From Cubamyces lactineus (taxonomy: Eukaryota > Basidiomycota > Agaricomycetes > Polyporales > Polyporaceae), in the NCBI GenBank assembly GCA_022376465.1, contig JACDTU010000002.1, positions 372,001 through 436,000 of the forward strand: DNA of 64,000 nt, in the 5' to 3' direction. A program made the position numbers and the translations under genes. Under the pieces are notes generated by a model. That model worked only from the letters and a program-made list of their open reading frames with translations. It did no database searches and was not told the DNA's origin. Below, piece by piece: positions 10,479 to 25,253 of this stretch (the stretch's first letter is position 1; each line of letters opens with the position of its first letter).

Positions 10479-11169
10479 TGTTACGCTCCGTGCTGTAACC
10501 CCGAAGTCCGATCCCTGAACCCCCGTACTCCGCTCCTTACTCTGCACTACATACTCCGCTTCCCCGTACTCCGTTCTTCCGTACCCCGTACCCCCGACTC
10601 CATTCTCCGTACTCCGCACTTCGGACTTCCCCCGGCCCCATGACTTACATGTCTCAGATAACCCCTCGTGGTGCTACCTACATGAGGCTTTTGCTTACAG
10701 AGCTATCTGCGTTATCTTACCCTTGGCAAGTTACTTCGTACTTTCGTTCTCCTCTTTCCTATCACGTACATCTCTTATTGTTTCCATCGGGTTTCTGACT
10801 TAGTATAAATACTGCCCCGGAATGTAGTAGCTACTCAGTTCGGAAATCTCGTTATTCCTCATTAACCTCATTATACTTGTTCCTCTCGTACTCCGACACT
10901 CAACCCCGACCTCCTAGTCCGACCACCCTTCGTTCCCTTCCTACCAACCCCTCCGACCAAACCCCGTTCCCAAGTCCGACCCCCGACCCATCAAGTCCGT
11001 ACTCCGTAGTCCGCAAATAGAGGACACCGAGTCGGAACCCGTGTGTTACTAATAGTTTCACGAAAGTCCTCACACAAGTGCTAGTCTGACCTCCGGTCAT
11101 ACTCCGACCCCGAACTCTGTCCAAGTCCCGACCACCGGAGTTGTACCCCTGGACGGCACGGTCCTAACA
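10479..11169 (+). mobile_element. Solo LTR B of the A / C-D family
   Basis: A 691-base LTR from TGTTACGC to TCCTAACA, flanked on both sides by CTCTA (10474-10478 and 11170-11174), a perfect 5-base target duplication. No internal sequence remains, so it is the product of LTR-LTR recombination after insertion into the gag of element B. It dates the A / C-D family as younger than B at this locus. Confidence 0.95.
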
Positions 11170-16073: not shown

Positions 16074-16168
16074 GAATCAGTGACACTATGGATTTTCAAT
16101 GGGAGTGGGGCTTTTGTAGTAGTGTATTAACAATTGTGCCACATTTGTAAATGAGATGCATGAATAAT

Positions 16169-16795
16169 GCCCCCACGTATGATACACAATAGCTGGATCG
16201 TACATGGACGTGGGTGCTTTGTACATGCCTCTGATATACAATCTGCCCACGTCTGATGTACAATAGCTGGATCGTACATGGACGTGGGCGGTTTGTATAT
16301 CCCTGTGATACACAATCCACCCACGTCCAATGTACAATAGCTGAATTGTAGATGGACGTGGGTGCTTTGTACATGCCTCTGATATACAATCTGCCCACGT
16401 CTGATGTACAAAAGCTGGATTGTAGATGGACGTGGGCGGTTTGTGGATGTCAATGGCTGGATTGTAGATGGACGTGGGTGATTTGTACATGCCTCTGATA
16501 TACAATCTGCCCACGTTTAGCTTGATTGTAGATGGACGTGGCAGTTTTGTACATGCCTCTGATATACAATCAGCCCACGTCTGATATACAATAGCTGGAT
16601 TGTATATGAACGTGGCAGTATTGTATATGAATGTGGCAGTTTTGTATATGAACGTGGCTGGATTGTAGATGAACGTGGGTGATTTGTACATGCCTCTGAT
16701 ATACAATCTGCCCACGTTTAGCTTGATTGTAGATGGATGTGGCAGTTTTGTAAATGCCTCTGATATACAATCAGCCCACGTCTGATATACAATAG
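16169..16795. repeat. Minisatellite of imperfect palindromic units
   Basis: Degenerate tandem units, mostly about 64-75 bases apart (some merged to 116 and 137), each containing GATATACAATCTGCCCACG or a variant. Each unit holds an inverted repeat, CCCACGTC ... GACGTGGG, with inner TGTAC / GTACA arms, so single units could fold into hairpins. The array ends exactly at LTR C (16796), which inserted in it or was joined to it by rearrangement. Confidence 0.8.
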
Positions 16796-17487
16796 TGTTA
16801 CGCTCCATGCTGTAACCCCGAAGTCCGATCCCCGAACCCCCGTACTCCGCTCCTTACTCCGCGTTGCGTACTCCGTTCCTCCATACTCCGCTCGTCCGTA
16901 CCCCGTACCCCCGACTCCGTTCTCCGTACTCCGCACTTCGTACTCCGTACTTCGGACTTCCCCCGACCCCATGACTTACATGTCTCAGATAACCCCTCAT
17001 GGCGCTACCTACATGAGGCTTTTGCTTACAGCTATCTGCGTTATCTTACTCTTGGCAGATTACTTCGTACTTTCGTTCTCCTCTTTCCTATCACGTACAT
17101 CTCTTTTGTTTCTACCAGGTTTCTGACTTAGTATAAATACTGCCCCGGAATGTAGTAGCTACTCAGTTCGGAAATCTTGTTAACTCGTCATACTGGTTAC
17201 ATCTCGTAGTCCAACACTCAACCCCGACTCTCTAGTCCGACCAACCTTCGTTCCCTTGCTACCAACCCCTTCGACCCAACCCCGTCCCTAAGTCCGACCT
17301 TCATCCCGTCAAGTCCGTACTCCGTAGTCCGTAAATAGAGGACATCGAGTCGGAACCCGTGCGTTACTAATAGTTTCGCGAAAGTCCTCACCCCAGTGCT
17401 AGTCCGACCTCCGGTCGTACTCCGACCCCGAACTCCGTCCAAGTCCCGACCACCGGAGTTGTACCCCCGGACGGCACGGTCCTAACA
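16796..17487 (+). mobile_element. LTR C, 5' LTR of element C-D
   Basis: 692 bases, TGTTACGC to TCCTAACA. The first 160 bases are packed with CCG triplets. TATAAATA at 17132-17139, then AGTTCGGAAAT at 17165-17175, the predicted start of the transcript. Confidence 0.93.
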
Positions 17488-17489
17488 GT

Positions 17490-17500
17490 ATTTCCGAACT
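17490..17500 (+). other. Self-primer binding site of element C-D
   Basis: ATTTCCGAACT, two bases after the LTR end, is the exact reverse complement (11 of 11) of AGTTCGGAAAT at 17165-17175, which begins 33 bases after the first T of the TATA box. This matches the self-priming arrangement known from Tf1, where the first 11 transcript bases prime reverse transcription. Confidence 0.7.
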
Positions 17501-17518: not shown

Positions 17519-18988
17519 ATGTCCACTCGAACCGTAGTCCGCACTCAGACTCAATCTCGCGCCCTAGAGCAAGAAGACCCCGCCGAGAACTGGAGTGGCT
17601 GGACAGCTCGCCGAGGCGACTCAGCGACGCAAGAAGAAGCTACTCCGAGCCGCCGCGGGCAGTTCGCTCGAACGATCGTTGAAGCGTCCTCCGATGGGGA
17701 CGACAAAGGTGACCCGCCTCAGCCTCTGGTCATCTCTACCGCGACTGCCTCGCAGGTACCCCGAGAGCCATCTCCGGGGAACCCGTTCTCCGAGGGTCAG
17801 CCTTCAGGTCCGAGCCGCGGGCCTCCAGGTCCGCCTAGTCCTCCAGGTCCGCCGGGCCCCCCAGGACCGCCAGGTCCTCCGGACAATGACCCACAAGGGC
17901 CGGGAGACGATGACACCAGCTCAAGCTCGGACTCCTCCGACTCCGAAGACCGAGTACAGTCGCAACTAGCGACCGCGATCTCTCTCATCGCGCGTACCCT
18001 CGAACGTACTACCGCTCCAACTCCGGCGGTTACCCAACCTTCGAACAACGAGCGGCACAACGTCCGCGAGCCGGACCAGTTCGACGGGTCCGATCCCAAC
18101 AAACTCCGGTCTTTCTTCACGCAGTCGGAACTTGTCTTCAAGGCCCGACCCCGAACCTTCGACTCCGATGAGAAGAAGGTGACCTACGCCATCTCCTTCC
18201 TCAAGGGCACCGCGCTACAATGGTTCGAGCCCTACCTCCTCGAAGGCGACTCGGACAACCCCCCCATCTTCCTTACATCCTACGACCACTTCCAGGAGGA
18301 ACTCCGAGTGAACTTTGGTCCATACGATGCCTCCGGAGCTGCGGAGCATGAGCTGATGAACCTCCGGATGGGCGACAACCAGCGGATAGCTAAGTACATC
18401 ACCCAGTTCACCCGCCTCGCTACTCAAGTCCGCTGGGGTAATGCTCCGCTCTGGTACCGGTTCTACGACGGACTTCCGAATCGTCTCAAGGACCGCATCT
18501 CCGAGGTCGGCAAGCCCGAGACCCTGGTGGCCCTCCGCGACCTCGCGCAGTCAATCGACAACCGCTACTGGGAGCGCAAGGCCGAGGTCTCGCGCGAGTC
18601 CGGACCTTCGAAGTCCGGCAGCAAGTCGACCTCCGACTCCAAGTCCTCCAACTCCGGCAACAAGTCCGGAGGTAACAACTCCGGACAGGCCTCCTTGTCT
18701 ACCCCGTCCAAGTCCGGCAATTCCGGTACTTCGTCGAAGTCTCCTAAGACTCCGAAGACCCTGGCCAAGACGTACGCCGACAAGCTCGGTAAGGACGGAA
18801 AGCTCACCCCCGAGGAGCGTCAGCGCCGTTTCGCCAACAACCTCTGTCTCTTCTGCGGCGGAGCTGGTCATACCGCGAGTGCTTGTCCGAAGAAGACCTC
18901 GTCCGCGACCAAGGGTCGCGCCGCTCAGGCCAACCCCGCTCCTGCTGCGCCTGCTCCGGCTGCAGCCCCGAAGGAGACAAAAAATTAG
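17519..18988 (+). CDS. gag of element C-D
   Basis: 489 residues, uninterrupted. An acidic, Ser/Pro-rich N terminus includes a collagen-like Gly-Pro-Pro run (residues about 100-122). The Gag core follows at about 185-350 ([23 protein letters not shown]). A Ser/Gly/Lys-rich linker leads to a CCHC knuckle, [14 protein letters not shown], near residue 443. The ATG at 17519 lies 31 bases after the 5' LTR. The stop TAG at 18986 sits directly behind a slippery heptamer. Gag is intact whereas pol of the same element has several frameshifts. Confidence 0.92.
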
Positions 18989-19027
18989 TCCGCGGTCCTC
19001 CGAACTCCGTACCCCGTGAGGACCGCG
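18979..19027 (+). promoter_or_regulatory. -1 ribosomal frameshift signal between gag and pol
   Basis: Slippery heptamer A_AAA_AAT (18979-18985) directly before the gag TAG, a 5-base spacer, then a perfect 10-bp stem CGCGGTCCTC (18991-19000) with GAGGACCGCG (19018-19027) and a 17-base loop. Slipping back one base joins gag to the pol frame without a stop. Heptamer, spacer and stem all match known -1 signals. Confidence 0.82.
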
Positions 19028-22000
19028 TTGACTCCTCCGGTACGGAGATCCTCAGGCTCAACGCGTCCGCTCTTTCCGACCCCCATGCACTCTTCCTCGA
19101 CTTGTACTCCGATTCTATCTCAACTCCGTTCCGCGCCCTTATCGACTCCGGTTCCTCCCATTGTTTCATCGACTCCGATTTCGCGACTACGTATCAACTC
19201 CCAACTACCGCCGTAACCCCGCTCCGTCTTCAGCTTTTTGACGGTACTTCTAACCACCTGATTACTTCGTTTACCTCATTGCCCGTACATTTTCCGTCTG
19301 GAGAAGTCCTCAATATAGATTTCTATGTTACTCCGCTCGACAAGTCCGTGTCTGCCGTTCTGGGATACAGCTGGCTCTCCGCCTACAATCCGTTGATTGA
19401 CTGGAAGAAGCGCAGCATCCAATTCCGTTCCGCACCCCCGCCGCGTCCTGTTTCTGACACCATGGTACCCCCGCCAGCTCCGGCTGAGCGTACTCCGTCT
19501 ACTCCGACTACTTCGGAACTACCGACTTCTCCTCCTCCGAACTCCGTACCCCGGATCTCCCTTGTGAACGCTGCTGCTTTCGCTCGAGCTTGCAAACTCC
19601 CGGGGTCCGCGAGTTATACCCTGAATCTGTCTACCCCGGACTTGGCTACTGCGCGAAGTTCGTCCCTCTCCGACTCTCCCCCGGACCTCACCGGAGTTCC
19701 GGAAGAGTACCACGAGTTTGCGGACGTCTTCAGCAAGACCAAGGCCGACATCCTACCGGAGCATCGCCCCTACGACCTAAAGATCGACCTGGAAGAAGGG
19801 GCTACTCCACCACTCGGACCTATCTACTCCCTCTCAAAACTCGAGCTCGACACGCTTCGGGAGTACATCGACGAGAACCTCCGATCGGGGTTCATACGTC
19901 CGTCCAACTCCCCCTGCGGAGCTCCCGTTCTCTTCGTCAAGAAGAAGGACGGATCTCTTCGCCTTTGCGTGGACTACCGGGGTTTGAATAAGATCACCCG
20001 GAAGGACCGCTATCCCCTTCCTCTCGTCTCGGACTTGCTGGACGCACCTCGGAAGGCCCGGATCTATACCAAAATCGACCTCCGTCACGCCTACAATCTA
20101 GTCCGCATAGCTCCCGGAGATGAGTGGAAGACCGCATTTCGGACTCGCTATGGGTCCTTCGAATGGTTAGTCATGCCGTTCGGACTTTCTAACGCGCCCG
20201 CTGCCTTTCAGCGGTTCGTCAATGACATCTTCGCGGACATGCTCGATGTGTGCGTCATCGTCTACCTGGACGACATCCTCATCTACTCCGACAACCCCGG
20301 CAACACCGCAAGCACGTCAAAGAGGTACTCCGGCGACTCCGCAAGCACCGGCTTTATGCCCGCGCTGACAAGTGCGAGTTCCACACCGACTCCGTCGAGT
20401 ACCTCGGGTACATCCTCTCTCCCACCGGACTTACCATGGCGGAGTCGAAGGTTAAGGCGATCTTGGATTGGCCCGAACCCCGGAAGGTCCGCGACATACA
20501 GTCGTTCCTGGGGTTCACAAACTTCTATCGACGGTTTATTCCAAACTACTCCGAGATCGTACTACCGCTGACCCGCTTAACCCGCAAGTCCGTGCCTTGG
20601 CACTTCTCCGAGGAATGTCGGAGTTCATTCAACGCTCTCAAGAAGGCGTTCACGACAGCTCCGGTACTACACCACTGGATGCCTGACCGACCCCTCACCG
20701 TCGAGACCGACGCCTCGGACTACGCCATCGCCGGCATTCTCTCCCTTACCACTGAGTCCGGTGAACTCCACCCCATTGCTTTCCACTCCCGCACCTTGAC
20801 CGGCGCGGAGTTGAACTACGACACTCACGACAAGGAACTCCTCGCGATCTTCGAATGTTTCAAGACCTGGCGGCACTACCTCGAGGGTTCGGCAACTCCG
20901 ATCGACGTTGTCACGGACCACAAGAACTTGGTATACTTCGCGACTACAAAGTTACTGACCCGCCGCCAAGCCCGATGGTCGGAGTTCCTCTCGCAGTTCA
21001 ACCTTGTAGTCCGGTTCCGACCAGGTAAGCTTGGAGCGAAGCCCGACGCACTGACACGCCGTTGGGACGTCTACCCAAAAGAGGGGGGCAGTGACTACTC
21101 CGTCGTCAACCCACACAACTACCGACCAGTTTTCACCCAGGAGCAGCTCGCCGCGTCCCTCCGGGCTACCTACCTCCGACCCCCCGTACTCCGAGCTTCC
21201 TTCATCCTCGACTCCGAACAACTCCTCTCGGACATCAAGTCCGCTCAAGCAACCCCGACTCCTGACCCCGAACTATCTGCCGCACTCAAGCTCGCCTCCG
21301 AAGGCAACTCCCGATGGTCCCGCGATGAAGACGGGCTACTCCGACTCTCAGGTCGAGTCTATGTCCCGAACTCCGGCGACCTCCGCCTTCGTGTACTCCG
21401 AGCTTGTCACGACCATCCTACTGCCGGACACTGGGGACAGAACAAGACGCAAGCCCTGGTCCTGCGGGACTACGCCTGGCCCGGACTTCGACTCTTCGTC
21501 CGGGACTACTGTAAGTCCTGTACTACCTGTGCGCGAGCTAAAGTCCCCCGGCATCTTCCCTAGGTACTTTGAAGCAACTCCCGATCCCCGAGCGACCCTG
21601 GAACTCCATCTCCATGGACCTCATCGAGCAACTCCCGAACTCCGCTGGCTACACCGCGATCTTGGTGGTAGTCGACAGGCTCACTAAGCAAGGTATATTC
21701 ATCCCTACCCACGACACGCTTACAGCCTCGGGTTAGCGGACTTGTTCGTACTCCATGTGTTCTCCAAGCACGGAGTTCCCTCGCACGTTACCTCCGACCG
21801 GGGCTCGGAGTTCGTCTCTCACTTCTTCCGCTCCCTCGGTAAGGCCCTCGACATGCGCCTTCACTTCACCTCCGGTTACCACCCGGAAGGCGATGGTCAA
21901 ACCGAGCGGGTTAACCAGACCCTCGAGCAGTACCTCCGGATCTATTCGAACTACCAGCAGGACAACTGGTCCCAACTCCTTCCCTTGGCGGAGTTCGCGT

Positions 22001-22693
22001 ACAACAATGCCCCGTCCGCAACCACCGGTATATCCCCATTCTTCGCGAACAAGGGCTACAACCCCGCCATCTCCGTCTACCCCGAGCGGGACCTCACCTC
22101 CGCTCGAGCTCGGACTACGCTGTCGATCTCGACGAACTCACACCCAACTCCGACAGCAGATCTCCGAAGCCCAGGCCCGATACCAAGTACAGGCGGACAA
22201 ACACCGTCTACCGGCGCCGGACTTCAAGGTCGGAGATCAGGTCTATGTCCGAGCTCAGCACATCCGGACTAACGTCCTCCAAAAAGTTGTCCGAGAAGTT
22301 CTTAGGTCCGTTCACTATCATCGCGCAGGTCAGAACTCACTCCTTCACCCTCCGACTACCGGACTCTATGCGCGCGGTCACCCCGTTTTCCATGTCTCAC
22401 AACTCGAGCCTGCAACTCCGAACACCATCCCCGGCCGCGTCCAAACTCCGCCACCTCCGATCCTGGTGGACGGAGAACCGGAGTACGAGATTTCGGAGAT
22501 CCTCGACTCCAAGATTGACCGCCGGCGTCGGAGTTGTCAACTCCTGTACCTAGTTCGATGGGCAGGCTACGAAGGTACGGACGAAGAAACTTCGTGGATC
22601 TTAGCCACGGAGCTCGGACATGCCCAGGAGCTAGTTTCGGACTTCCACGCAGCTTACCCGGACAAGCCAGGACCTCTTGCTAAGTTGTCTTGA
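18986..22693 (+). pseudogene. pol of element C-D: protease, RT, RNase H, integrase, chromodomain (frameshifted)
   Basis: Entered by -1 frameshifting. Aspartic protease with [10 protein letters not shown] near 19140; RT with [11 protein letters not shown] near 20260; RNase H near 20690-20990; integrase zinc region with [11 protein letters not shown] near 21515; integrase core with SDRGSEFVSHFF near 21800; C-terminal chromodomain near 22480-22680 (YLVRWAGYEG). The frame breaks near 20298, 21560, 21735, 22113, 22138, 22275 and 22380. Each break is explained by loss of one base, mostly in a short C or G run, so either the copy is dead or the assembly has homopolymer errors here. It ends at TGA 22693, 103 bases from the convergent stop of the antisense gene. 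Confidence 0.88.
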
Positions 22694-22795
22694 GGTTCAC
22701 ACCGGAGTTCTCACCCCGAATTTTACTATTCTACTCCGCACCCGGACTACAATTGTCTACCTACGAAGCCCGTAGTCCGAAGTCCCTAGTCCGCC

Positions 22796-24192
22796 CTACT
22801 CCGCCATGTCCATGTCCGCCGGGTCCTCCGGCCCCTTCCCCTCCTTAGCGCCCTTGCCCTGCTCCTCCTCCTCACCGGACTTGCCCCGTGCGGACTTGTC
22901 CAACCCCGACCCATTCTCCTCCTCCTCCCAGTCCGACCCCGCAACCCCCGCCCGCTCCAGCGCGTCCGCGATCGCGTCCTCCTTGTCCTGCGAGGTGATC
23001 TCAAGGATCTCCCGCAGCATAGTCCCGAACTCCGTCGCGAGTTCGGACTTCACCGCCTCGCGGACGGCCTCGCCGATCACGGCCTTCAACTCCTTCCGCA
23101 CGATCTTGGCGATGGCGTCGCCAAGACCCCGGACTTCCTCCCGCATCATCTCCTCCCGCTGCTCCTCCTCGTCGACCAGGAGGTCGATGACCCGCCCCGC
23201 GGTGCGCCGGTTGCGCTGCACCGCGACGAGCAGGTGCTCGAGGAGCTCGCGGTCGGAGAGCTTCTCCGGGTCATCGGACCACCGGAGGTCGGACTTCCCA
23301 ACCTCCGGAAGTCCGGAGCTGGCGGACATGCGGGGGCCCGTCGACGAGCCCGCGATGCTTGGACCTCGGGCTACTACCGTCCGCGCTGGTGGGTTAACTC
23401 CAGGCGGTGCTACGAATGTCCACCGGACCTCACCTGGTTGGAGCGGCTTCTCCGCCGCCTTCTCCGCCGGCTTCTCCTTCTCCTTCTCCTTCCCCTTGCC
23501 CTTCTCCGCCCGCACCTTCTCCGAACTCCGAACTCCGGTGGGCGCAGGGGTCTCGAATCCGTCGTCGTCGTCGACGATGGCGGCGGACTTGACCTTCTTG
23601 CGCTGCGGGCTGGGGGCCTCCTCCTTGCGCATGATCCGGGCCTGGATGTCCGCGGGCAACCCGCGAGCCCCAACGCACGCGCGCGACCGGGCCTTCTGGC
23701 ATTGGACGCAACTTGACGTCCGTTTGCCCGCGCGGAACCGGCACGCGATCTGCTTTGCGGCGCACCGGTCGCACTTCGTCCTGTGGAACTCCGTTAGTCC
23801 GAACCCCGTACTCCGTACCCCGACCGGACTTACCGCGGGACGAGCAACTCCGCGTCGTCCTCCTCCTCCTCCTCCGACTCCGGCTCTTCATCCTCCGCGG
23901 GACGCTTGCTTCCCCGCGCGGAAGTCCCGGCCTTCGCGAGGGCAGCCTGGCGAATCAACGCCGCTGCCTTCTGCGTGGCCTCGTACTCCGCGCGCTCCTT
24001 CTCCTCCCGCGCTCGCTCCTCCTCCGCCTTTCGCGCCCTGTAAACCACCGTTAGCCCGAACTCCGCACCCCGAAACCCCAGCAACCCCGGTACTTACGCC
24101 TCCGCTGCCGCGGCCTCCTCCGCCGCCGCCTTCATTCGGAGTTGCGCGAGGTGGGCCTCCAAGGCCTGGATGTTGTCGAGGGTTGTAGACAT
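22796..24192 (-). CDS. Antisense Zn2Cys6-type zinc cluster protein in element C-D (copy 2)
   Basis: Exons 24098-24192, 23834-24037 and 22796-23780 give 427 residues. Introns of 60 and 53 bases have GTAAGT donors, CTAAC branch-like sites and CAG acceptors. Domains: short N-terminal helix (1-32); charged Glu/Arg stretch and an acidic patch (33-99); zinc cluster C-X2-C-X6-C-X10-C-X2-C-X7-C at about 102-134, matching the fungal Zn(II)2Cys6 pattern; a basic KKVKSA segment; low-complexity Lys/Glu; and a long predicted helical region at about 270-385. It lies between pol and the 3' LTR, opposite to the element. The open frame and introns are intact while pol of the same element is frameshifted. A nuclear DNA-binding role is inferred; I know no described fungal counterpart in this position. 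Confidence 0.78.
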
Positions 24193-24254
24193 GCTGGTGG
24201 TGGTGGTGGTGGGAGACAGAGAGCGAGGACGAACTGGCTAAGTCTCACCCCCGT

Positions 24255-24262
24255 CTTATATA
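24255..24262 (-). promoter_or_regulatory. TATA box of antisense gene copy 2
   Basis: TATATAAG on the minus strand, about 63 bases upstream of the ATG at 24192, with a purine/GT-rich leader between. Identical in position to the box at 1708-1715. Confidence 0.6.
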
Positions 24263-24386
24263 CACCTTTCTTCATCGATTCTGACCCTGCCCCGATTCTT
24301 GATCTCCGTTCCCTGGACTTATCGGATTACCTTTTTTGGACAGACTTCCATTTCTCTTCACTATAGGCCCTCAAGGGTTCGGGCCT

Positions 24387-24396
24387 AGGGGGGAGG
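24387..24396 (+). other. Polypurine tract of element C-D
   Basis: AGGGGGGAGG then CAC, immediately before LTR D at 24400. The same sequence precedes LTR A. Confidence 0.75.
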
Positions 24397-24399
24397 CAC

Positions 24400-25058
24400 T
24401 GTTACGCCCCGTGCTGTAACCCCGAAGTCCGATCCCCGAACCCCCGTACTCCGCTCCTTACTCCGTGTTACGTACTCCGCTCCTCCGTACTCCGCTCCTC
24501 CATACCCCGTACCCCCGACTCCGTTCTCCGTACTCCGCACTTCGTACTCCGTACTTCGGACTTCCCCCGACCCCATGACTTACATGTCTCAGATAACCCC
24601 TCATGGCACTGCCTACATGAGGCTTTTGCTTACTGAGCTATCTACGTTATCTTACCCTTGGCAAGTTACTTCGTACTTTCGTTCTACTCCTTCCTATCAC
24701 GTACATCTCTTATTGTTTTTATCGGGTTTCTGACTTAGTATAAATACTGCCCCGGAATGTAGTAGCTACGCAGTTTGGAAATCTCGTTATACTCATTACT
24801 GGTTCAACTCGTACTCCGACACTCAACCCCGACCCTCTAGTCCGACCAACCTTCGTTTCCAAGTCCGACCTCCGACCCGTCAAGTCCGTACTCCGCAGTC
24901 CGCAAATAGAGGACACCGAGTCGGAACCCGTGCGTTACTAATAGTTTCGCGAAAGTCCTCACTACAGTGCCAGTCCGACCTCCGGTCGTACTCCGTCCCC
25001 GAACTCCGTCCAAGTCCCGACCACCGGAGTTGTACCCCCGGACGGCACGGTCCTAACA
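24400..25058 (+). mobile_element. LTR D, 3' LTR of element C-D
   Basis: 659 bases, TGTTACGC to TCCTAACA. Shorter than LTR C through a deletion of about 33 bases downstream of the start site, with scattered substitutions, so the insertion is not recent or the pair has been remodelled. Its right edge abuts the protease region of element Y. Confidence 0.92.
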
Positions 25059-25253
25059 GGAAGTTGTGCTCTTTCGCAAACCTGTGGTCCATGAATACTT
25101 CTCCTGCTCCCGTGTCGATGAGGGCTTTCGTTTCGACGTTTAGGTCCGCGTGGATAGATAACGGAATTCTCATAGACTGTCGAGAAGTCTGCGCTGCTAT
25201 TACACGGCGGACCTTAGTACGCGGTCGTGACGTCGAGACACGCCGGTTCTTCA
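25059..25253 (-). pseudogene. Start of pol (protease) of element Y, truncated
   Basis: Minus-strand pol frame entered by -1 shifting from gag. It contains the protease active site region ALIDTGAGEVFMDHRFAKEHN near 25070-25130 and is cut by LTR D at 25058. The sequence parallels element B at 11629-11820. The rest of this pol is not found on the other side of C-D, where the minisatellite lies instead. Confidence 0.8.

Follow-up and report, generated by a model that had tools for sequence, protein, structure and literature searches.

The 64,000-nucleotide (nt) stretch of Cubamyces lactineus DNA analysed here (the window; contig JACDTU010000002.1, positions 372,001 to 436,000) carries a Ty3/gypsy chromovirus, in which gag, protease, reverse transcriptase (RT), ribonuclease H (RNase H), integrase and chromodomain follow in that order between two long terminal repeats (LTRs), as recognised from piecewise Pfam matches and from the repeats themselves; the match to the integrase core (rve), on a broken piece of pol, reached 21.9 bits against a cut-off of 32.6. 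Between pol, which ends at 22693, and the 3' LTR, the minus strand encodes an additional gene of three exons, with 1284 nt corresponding to 427 amino acids (aa) and a stop codon at 22796. An original prediction had proposed this gene from the letters of the window, and its exon and intron coordinates and its consensus introns were confirmed (Table 1). A CTAAC branch-like site lies 17 nt from the 3' end of each of the two introns. The TATA box placed by the same prediction 63 bases upstream corresponds to TATATAAG, which starts 70 nt and ends 62 nt before the antisense ATG and is consistent with that claim, and a purine tract directly precedes the start of the 3' LTR (24400). The LTR slices used in the computations (16797-17497 and 24401-25066) start one base later than the repeats and end at most 10 nt further.

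Table 1. Coordinates in the window of the antisense gene, its signals and the element that hosts it.
Feature	Coordinates	Strand	Remarks
Exon 1	24098..24192	-	ATG at 24192
Intron 1	24038..24097	-	60 nt; GTAAGT...CTAAC...CAG; 4 CGG words inside
Exon 2	23834..24037	-	charged part ahead of the cluster
Intron 2	23781..23833	-	53 nt; GTAAGT...CTAAC...CAG; 6 CGG words inside
Exon 3	22796..23780	-	six-cysteine cluster, basic stretch, long C-terminal helix, acidic tail (as predicted), stop codon
Six-cysteine Zn2Cys6-like cluster and start of following linker	23661..23780	-	
TATA-to-ATG stretch	24193..24253	-	putative leader
Antisense promoter stretch with TATATAAG, to purine tract	24254..24399	-	most conserved non-coding stretch compared; zero CGG words
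5' LTR	16796..17487	+	TG...CA; direct repeat with 24400-25058; holds the sense TATA box and the U3 CGG-word array
U3 array, 11 A[CG][CT]CCG / CGG[AG][CG]T words	16815..16958		starts 179-317 nt upstream of the sense TATA
Sense TATA box TATAAATA	17132		in the 5' LTR
gag	17519..18988	+	Retrotrans_gag and Ty3_capsid domains; frame open in the window copy
pol	18989..22693	+	protease, RT, RNase H, integrase, chromodomain; split into several frames in the window copy
3' LTR	24400..25058	+	TG...CA; direct repeat with the 5' LTR

The signals of the antisense gene were compared in 35 loci, comprising the 30 best-ranked by protein match and five picked for their divergence. The ATG was kept in 34 of them, and TATATAAG was present 70-74 nt before it, likewise in 34. 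The GTAAGT of intron 1 was kept in 33 loci and that of intron 2 in 34, the remaining one having GTAAGC, while the terminal CAG of intron 2 was found in all 35. Where the frame is intact, exon 2 measured 201, 204, 216, 219 or 237 nt, all divisible by three, and intron 1 measured 51-61 nt. A frame of more than 400 aa was present in 22 of the 35 loci (22/30 best-ranked, 0/5 diverged), with the reservation that ranking by protein match favours intact copies. Spliced retrocopies were not found when the exon 2-exon 3 junction of the window copy, the only junction searched, was sought with at most three mismatches, a result that is uninformative either way. In integrated copies, the gene's own TATA promoter most likely drives its transcription.

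The gene proved to be a property of the family. A protein search of the source genome (36.3 Mb) gave 133 matches, 35 of which, the window copy included, were at least 89% identical over about residues 98-427. The 30 top-ranked loci (L009, the window copy, through L038) were compared piece by piece, and the order pol end, antisense gene (exon 3), 3' LTR was common to all of them; in L013 and L035, less than 40% of the pol-end query was matched, L038 is without exon 1 and intron 1 as well as the stretch upstream, blastn matched intron 1 in none of L036-L038, and L011 has about 0.7 kb of additional sequence in exon 2. A query with a piece of pol gave 103 matches, 50 of them from this family (78-100% identity) and 53 at 41-46% identity. 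The antisense gene lay at most 4.5 kb downstream, on the opposite strand, of 46 of the 50 family pol matches, among which three elements are split across two matches each, and it was paired with none of the 53 pol matches of other families. This pairing used 61 of the 133 gene matches, those omitted being mostly short exon 1-2 or overlapping matches, and 18 of the 61 had no pol partner. Long antisense frames occur as well in four loci of other gypsy families that were read; their relation to the present gene was judged by the pol pairing. The expectation that the gene would not be confined to one copy was thus borne out, and a host gene captured in a single copy is ruled out by the 35 close matches, the 30 loci of common order and the 46 pol pairings.

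The antisense frame is, by its pattern of substitution, under strong purifying selection. The Nei-Gojobori ratio of nonsynonymous to synonymous divergence (dN/dS) against the window copy was 0.06-0.15 in 16 of 17 distinct proteins, the other one (L010) giving 0.37 from just 13 changes, and among seven sublineage representatives it was 0.06-0.16 in 20 of 21 pairs, with one close pair at 0.44. An open reading frame (ORF) of 460 aa also runs on the sense strand (22806-24188), is open in the window and has a comparable long frame open in many copies, so that one might take it for the true, env-like gene and the antisense reading for its shadow. The variable columns among the seven representatives decide otherwise. 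In exon 1, 14 of 31 antisense wobble columns were variable versus 2 of 32 in each of the other two classes; the corresponding figures were 20/68 versus 8/68 and 7/68 in exon 2, where 7/68 is the sense wobble, and 91/329 versus 18/328 and 22/328 in exon 3. Variability sits in coordinate class 1 in exons 1-2 and in class 2 in exon 3, a switch that splicing of the antisense frame demands. With the splice signals kept and the homologues matching the antisense protein, the sense ORF was rejected as a real gene, a role that we regard as extremely improbable, and its open frame is explained as the shadow because the variable columns sit on antisense wobble positions. Outside the coding sequence, nine copies differed from the window copy by 0-2.7% in the stretch from the TATA box to the purine tract, versus 2-25.5% in the gap between pol and the antisense gene.

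The antisense protein contains exactly six cysteines, with the spacing C-x2-C-x6-C-x10-C-x2-C-x7-C, which falls within the range of the Zn2Cys6 cluster (CX2CX6CX5-12CX2CX6-8C). The six are invariant in a set of nine sequences (A3), and all six are present, judged by eye, in 10 of the 17 of another set (A2). In Pfam, no family, PF00172 (Zn_clus) included, was matched by the window protein at E≤1, and one of 17 family members matched PF00172, at E 0.11. These values fall short of the PF00172 cut-off, and the protein is therefore not classed as a Zn2Cys6 member; of the zinc-cluster assignment made originally, the cysteine spacing stands, and the profile match proposed as a check was not obtained. 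No named domain emerged convincingly from Pfam or PDB-sequence searches. In Foldseek searches with predicted models, all five and all ten matches at E≤10 were Zn2Cys6 domains, the likeness being weak. The N-terminal part of the product is charged and probably forms a coiled coil, as judged by eye, and beyond it the predicted product continues with the Zn2Cys6-like cluster, then a basic stretch and a helix some 100 residues long, and ends in an acidic tail. Homologous proteins with 22 distinct ids (P0001-P0022) were listed across the protein searches, and the named sources were Trametes cinnabarina (8), T. sanguinea (5), Cubamyces sp. (2), T. coccinea (1) and T. cubensis (1), in agreement with the anticipated presence of homologues in other species, here as predicted proteins of Trametes and Cubamyces. 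P0018, listed with no source and identical over the whole match (100%), is probably the window's own protein. The number of homologues outside the source genome suggests that they too are linked to gypsy elements. P0009 and P0016, both of T. cinnabarina, have terminal tails unlike the rest of the family, and their gene models are probably fused across neighbouring sequence.

Known Zn2Cys6 proteins typically read CGG triplets, according to a passage in PMC5559640, and CGG-type words were counted for that reason. The sense strand of the element holds 66 copies of ACTCCG, where dinucleotide shuffles gave 6.6 expected, and 14 of CGGAGT, where 2.8 were expected; between 26000 and 64000 of the window the counts were 6 and 10 versus 11 and 12 expected. 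ACTCCG is found in all three gag frames and is the commonest hexamer in the non-coding 5' LTR, the sense strand of which holds ACTCCG 10 times and CGGAGT once. The pooled degenerate word A[CG][CT]CCG / CGG[AG][CG]T, picked after the top hexamers of the element were known, has 180 sites in the element (21.8/kb) and a density of 1.64/kb in the rest of the window, family copies excluded. In the coding pieces it occurs 104 times, whereas 1000 codon-preserving shuffles gave 38.5 on average and never more than 54, and the excess is present on both strands (70 versus 26.8 and 34 versus 11.7 expected); ACTCCG alone occurs 36 times in coding sequence, versus 13.5 expected and a maximum of 24 in 1000 shuffles. 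Antisense exons 1 and 2 by themselves showed no clear excess over codon shuffles. When all hexamers were scanned in the coding pieces, AACTCC (z 9.7), ACTCCG (9.0) and AGTCCG (8.0) ranked highest, followed by CTCCGA and AAGTCC; in 11.6 kb of control ORFs, taken from other gypsy families and from the window, the maximum z was 4.8 and that of ACTCCG -1.7. No excess was found in four loci sampled from other gypsy families, which together with the rest of the window form the whole basis on which the specificity of the word was judged. Read in orientation, the word is followed by T or A at 148 of the 180 sites and preceded by T at 67, flanks that bear a weak resemblance to the Pho7 site, given as TCG(G/C)(A/T)xxTTxAA in part of PMC5559640.

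The word is densest in the introns of the antisense gene (67-113/kb) and in the pol-gene gap (69), followed by the LTR (32-34) and by the exons, gag and pol (10-19). It is absent from the 208 nt of antisense leader and promoter, where 4.5 sites were expected. Within the U3 array of the LTR, six of the ten spacings are of 14-15 nt, and the commonest same-strand word spacings are 7 and 14 nt. The identical 11 sites and spacing were found in six of the 16 LTRs compared (both LTRs of the window element, L014, L032, L033 and L040); the remaining LTRs have 4-10 array words, with the fewest in the diverged copies L041 (4), L039 (6) and L042 (7). For LTR pairs of the close family, a set that includes the broken-gene copies L034, L036 and L040, the same substitutions were placed at random by simulation, and the observed 19-25 words exceeded the expected mean of 14.6-19.9 in 18 of 18 comparisons, the observed number being reached by 0.000 to 0.49 of the simulations; the pairs are non-independent and the starting sequence is no true ancestor. 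With the diverged L041 as the start, 21-26 words were observed versus 8.5-10.2 expected.

A DNA-binding protein encoded antisense by this chromovirus family may recognise its own element through CGG[AG][CG]T, a proposal that we hold to be about evenly balanced between right and wrong. In the mechanism that we infer from these sequences, the accessory gene between pol and the 3' LTR would be transcribed from integrated copies via its own TATA promoter, and its introns would outlast every round of transposition because they are antisense, so that the sense genomic RNA cannot splice them. The product would be nuclear, bind zinc and DNA, and read the words that saturate its own element; the array upstream of the sense TATA and the dense coat of the element body would let it mark its own copies. 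Such marking could set sense transcription or chromatin state in either direction, by activation or anti-silencing or by repression, and, since the antisense promoter is free of the word, no self-regulation would be expected. A complete self-recognition system, in which a zinc-cluster-like antisense protein would read a word present about 180 times in its own element, both strands of the coding sequence included, so that each copy is marked over its full length while the promoter of the regulator stays word-free, is put forward tentatively, at somewhat less than even probability. The regulator acting on the element that was originally envisaged gains indirect support from the CGG-word array.

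Several observations weigh against recognition of the word by the protein. Because the degenerate word was chosen from the element's top hexamers, its P-values are optimistic. Site by site, conservation of the word is not clearly over background: single words are conserved not above background in the LTR, weakly in the gene and in the opposite sense in the pol end, where the conservation class partly depends on copies that align poorly. With the diverged L041 taken as the descendant, the 11-13 words observed are no more than the 13-14 expected. Array and gene integrity are not strictly coupled either, because L040 has a broken gene and yet 11 array words, and the intact L012, L013 and L035 have 8, 9 and 10. 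Conservation of single sites that is not clearly over background also fits an accessory protein with another job, such as the nuclear import, integration or RNA handling suggested for the nuclear protein of maize Grande, next to an unrelated CGG word that would be a site of a host Zn2Cys6 factor exploited by the element or an old heptamer expansion; the common spacings of 7 and 14 nt agree with such an expansion, and the position and orientation of the gene are those of plant antisense ORFs to which no function is assigned in part of PMC7264820. Simple expansion does not, however, explain an excess beyond codon constraint or the presence of ACTCCG in all three gag frames, and neither the excess in the four sampled loci nor the gene beside the 53 other pol matches was found in other gypsy families; we consider this explanation unlikely, though one to be taken seriously.

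Two further explanations move the activity to RNA. The word might work in the sense RNA, in packaging or through Gag or a host RNA-binding protein, as its one-sided use would suggest, with ACTCCG far ahead of CGGAGT on the sense strand of the whole element and of the 5' LTR. The coding excess over codon shuffles is nevertheless about equal on both strands, and some of the dense sites lie in the unique 3' region (U3) of the LTR upstream of the sense TATA, which in the usual layout is outside the RNA start, and we give this explanation a slim chance. That the antisense RNA matters rather than the protein, by pairing with the sense RNA and feeding or dampening RNA silencing, is in our view very improbable: the antisense RNA would cover the sense transcript in its 3' part, and other elements have non-coding antisense RNAs (part of PMC7264820), but the low dN/dS in 20 of 21 pairs, an exon 2 that varies in threes in intact copies, the six cysteines kept and the phase of the wobble indicate a protein.

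Genes lying antisense between pol and the 3' LTR have precedents in plants and in at least one fungus. Contrary to the assumption that no fungal case had been described, an antisense gene named brtn is on record for the Boty elements of Botrytis (Zhao et al. 2011, as cited in passages of PMC7264820, PMC8365987 and PMC4227169); as described in these passages, Boty shares with the present family a fungal Ty3/gypsy element with chromodomain and an additional antisense gene, and differs in having an ascomycete host, unlike the present basidiomycete family. The plant aORF-3R genes (maize Grande gene23, rice RIRE2, Silene Retand and bean PvRetro13) share place and orientation, and they too are present in most copies of a family, as was found here for 46 of 50 pol matches; parts of PMC7264820 and PMC11963269 report an own promoter for the Grande antisense ORF and suggest a nuclear or DNA-binding role for aORF-3R. 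Compared by description, the present gene is set apart from them by its fungal host, its three exons with conserved introns and its Zn2Cys6-like cluster, and these parts of the two sources do not mention saturation of aORF-3R elements with a word of their own.

Outside these groups, HBZ of human T-cell leukaemia virus type 1 (HTLV-1) and the APH proteins are antisense, spliced and nuclear and act on the sense promoter of their own element (part of PMC10186651). HBZ, as described there, is a basic leucine zipper (bZIP) protein from a TATA-less promoter in the 3' LTR, whereas the present gene has an internal TATA promoter outside the LTR and a zinc-cluster-like product that matches no Pfam family, bZIP included. 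VANC of the Arabidopsis VANDAL elements is an element-encoded anti-silencing protein that reads a short word dense in its own family (part of PMC5735166), and a dense, element-specific short word is likewise present here; the present family differs from VANDAL in being an LTR element with words within coding sequence too. With Gal4, PPR1 and Pho7 the antisense protein shares the six-cysteine spacing, a predicted short helix at each CxxC pair, a following helix and a CGG word nearby, and unlike them it is not matched by PF00172 and has no other Pfam domain. By analogy, its layout is closest to that of HBZ and its logic to that of VANC. Among the matches listed from the open-licence PMC literature, none described a zinc-cluster gene lying antisense in a fungal gypsy element; as far as these matches show, what is new is the Zn2Cys6-like protein, the evidence for antisense introns and selection in a fungal family and, above all, the saturation with an own word. 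A 2020 review still called the role of antisense genes of LTR elements undetermined (part of PMC7264820), and the present gene combines strong selection with conserved introns, which hint at its use from integrated copies, and with a candidate target throughout the element. If the proposal is true, a fungus would possess a compact control system of sequence-specific action, resembling HBZ in its layout and VANC in its logic, and it could be tested clearly how coding sequence takes up a short word while the protein stays the same.

The window copy itself is probably a recombined, mosaic one, because its LTRs are unlike each other (91-97% identity in ungapped blocks, 88.6% with gaps, and an indel of 34 nt) and no target-site duplication is visible at its ends (the only copy inspected), yet its RNase H-integrase piece is 99-100% protein-identical to many other copies. 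In 14 other family pol matches the pol frame is open over 1262-1268 codons with zero stops, and the family as a whole is therefore not dead; the contrast drawn originally between a clean antisense frame and a broken pol holds for the window copy and fails for the family. The dS of the antisense gene is about 0.2, several times that of the pol end (0.06 versus L014) and the LTR divergence, and the pol-gene gap (22694-22795) is likewise several times more diverged than pol end and LTR. Because of this, the family looks mosaic, perhaps by template switching.

The same window contains a second, truncated copy of the family at 978-2546 (gene pieces 982-1645, LTR 1854-2546) and an additional LTR at 10480-11169. 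An array of direct and inverted repeats, with spacings of 74 to about 200 nt, adjoins the 5' LTR at 16135-16795. Elsewhere in the genome, two diverged family copies in opposite orientation (L042 and G000:C4:811249-824736) have identical gene match scores and may be an inverted duplication or an assembly artefact.
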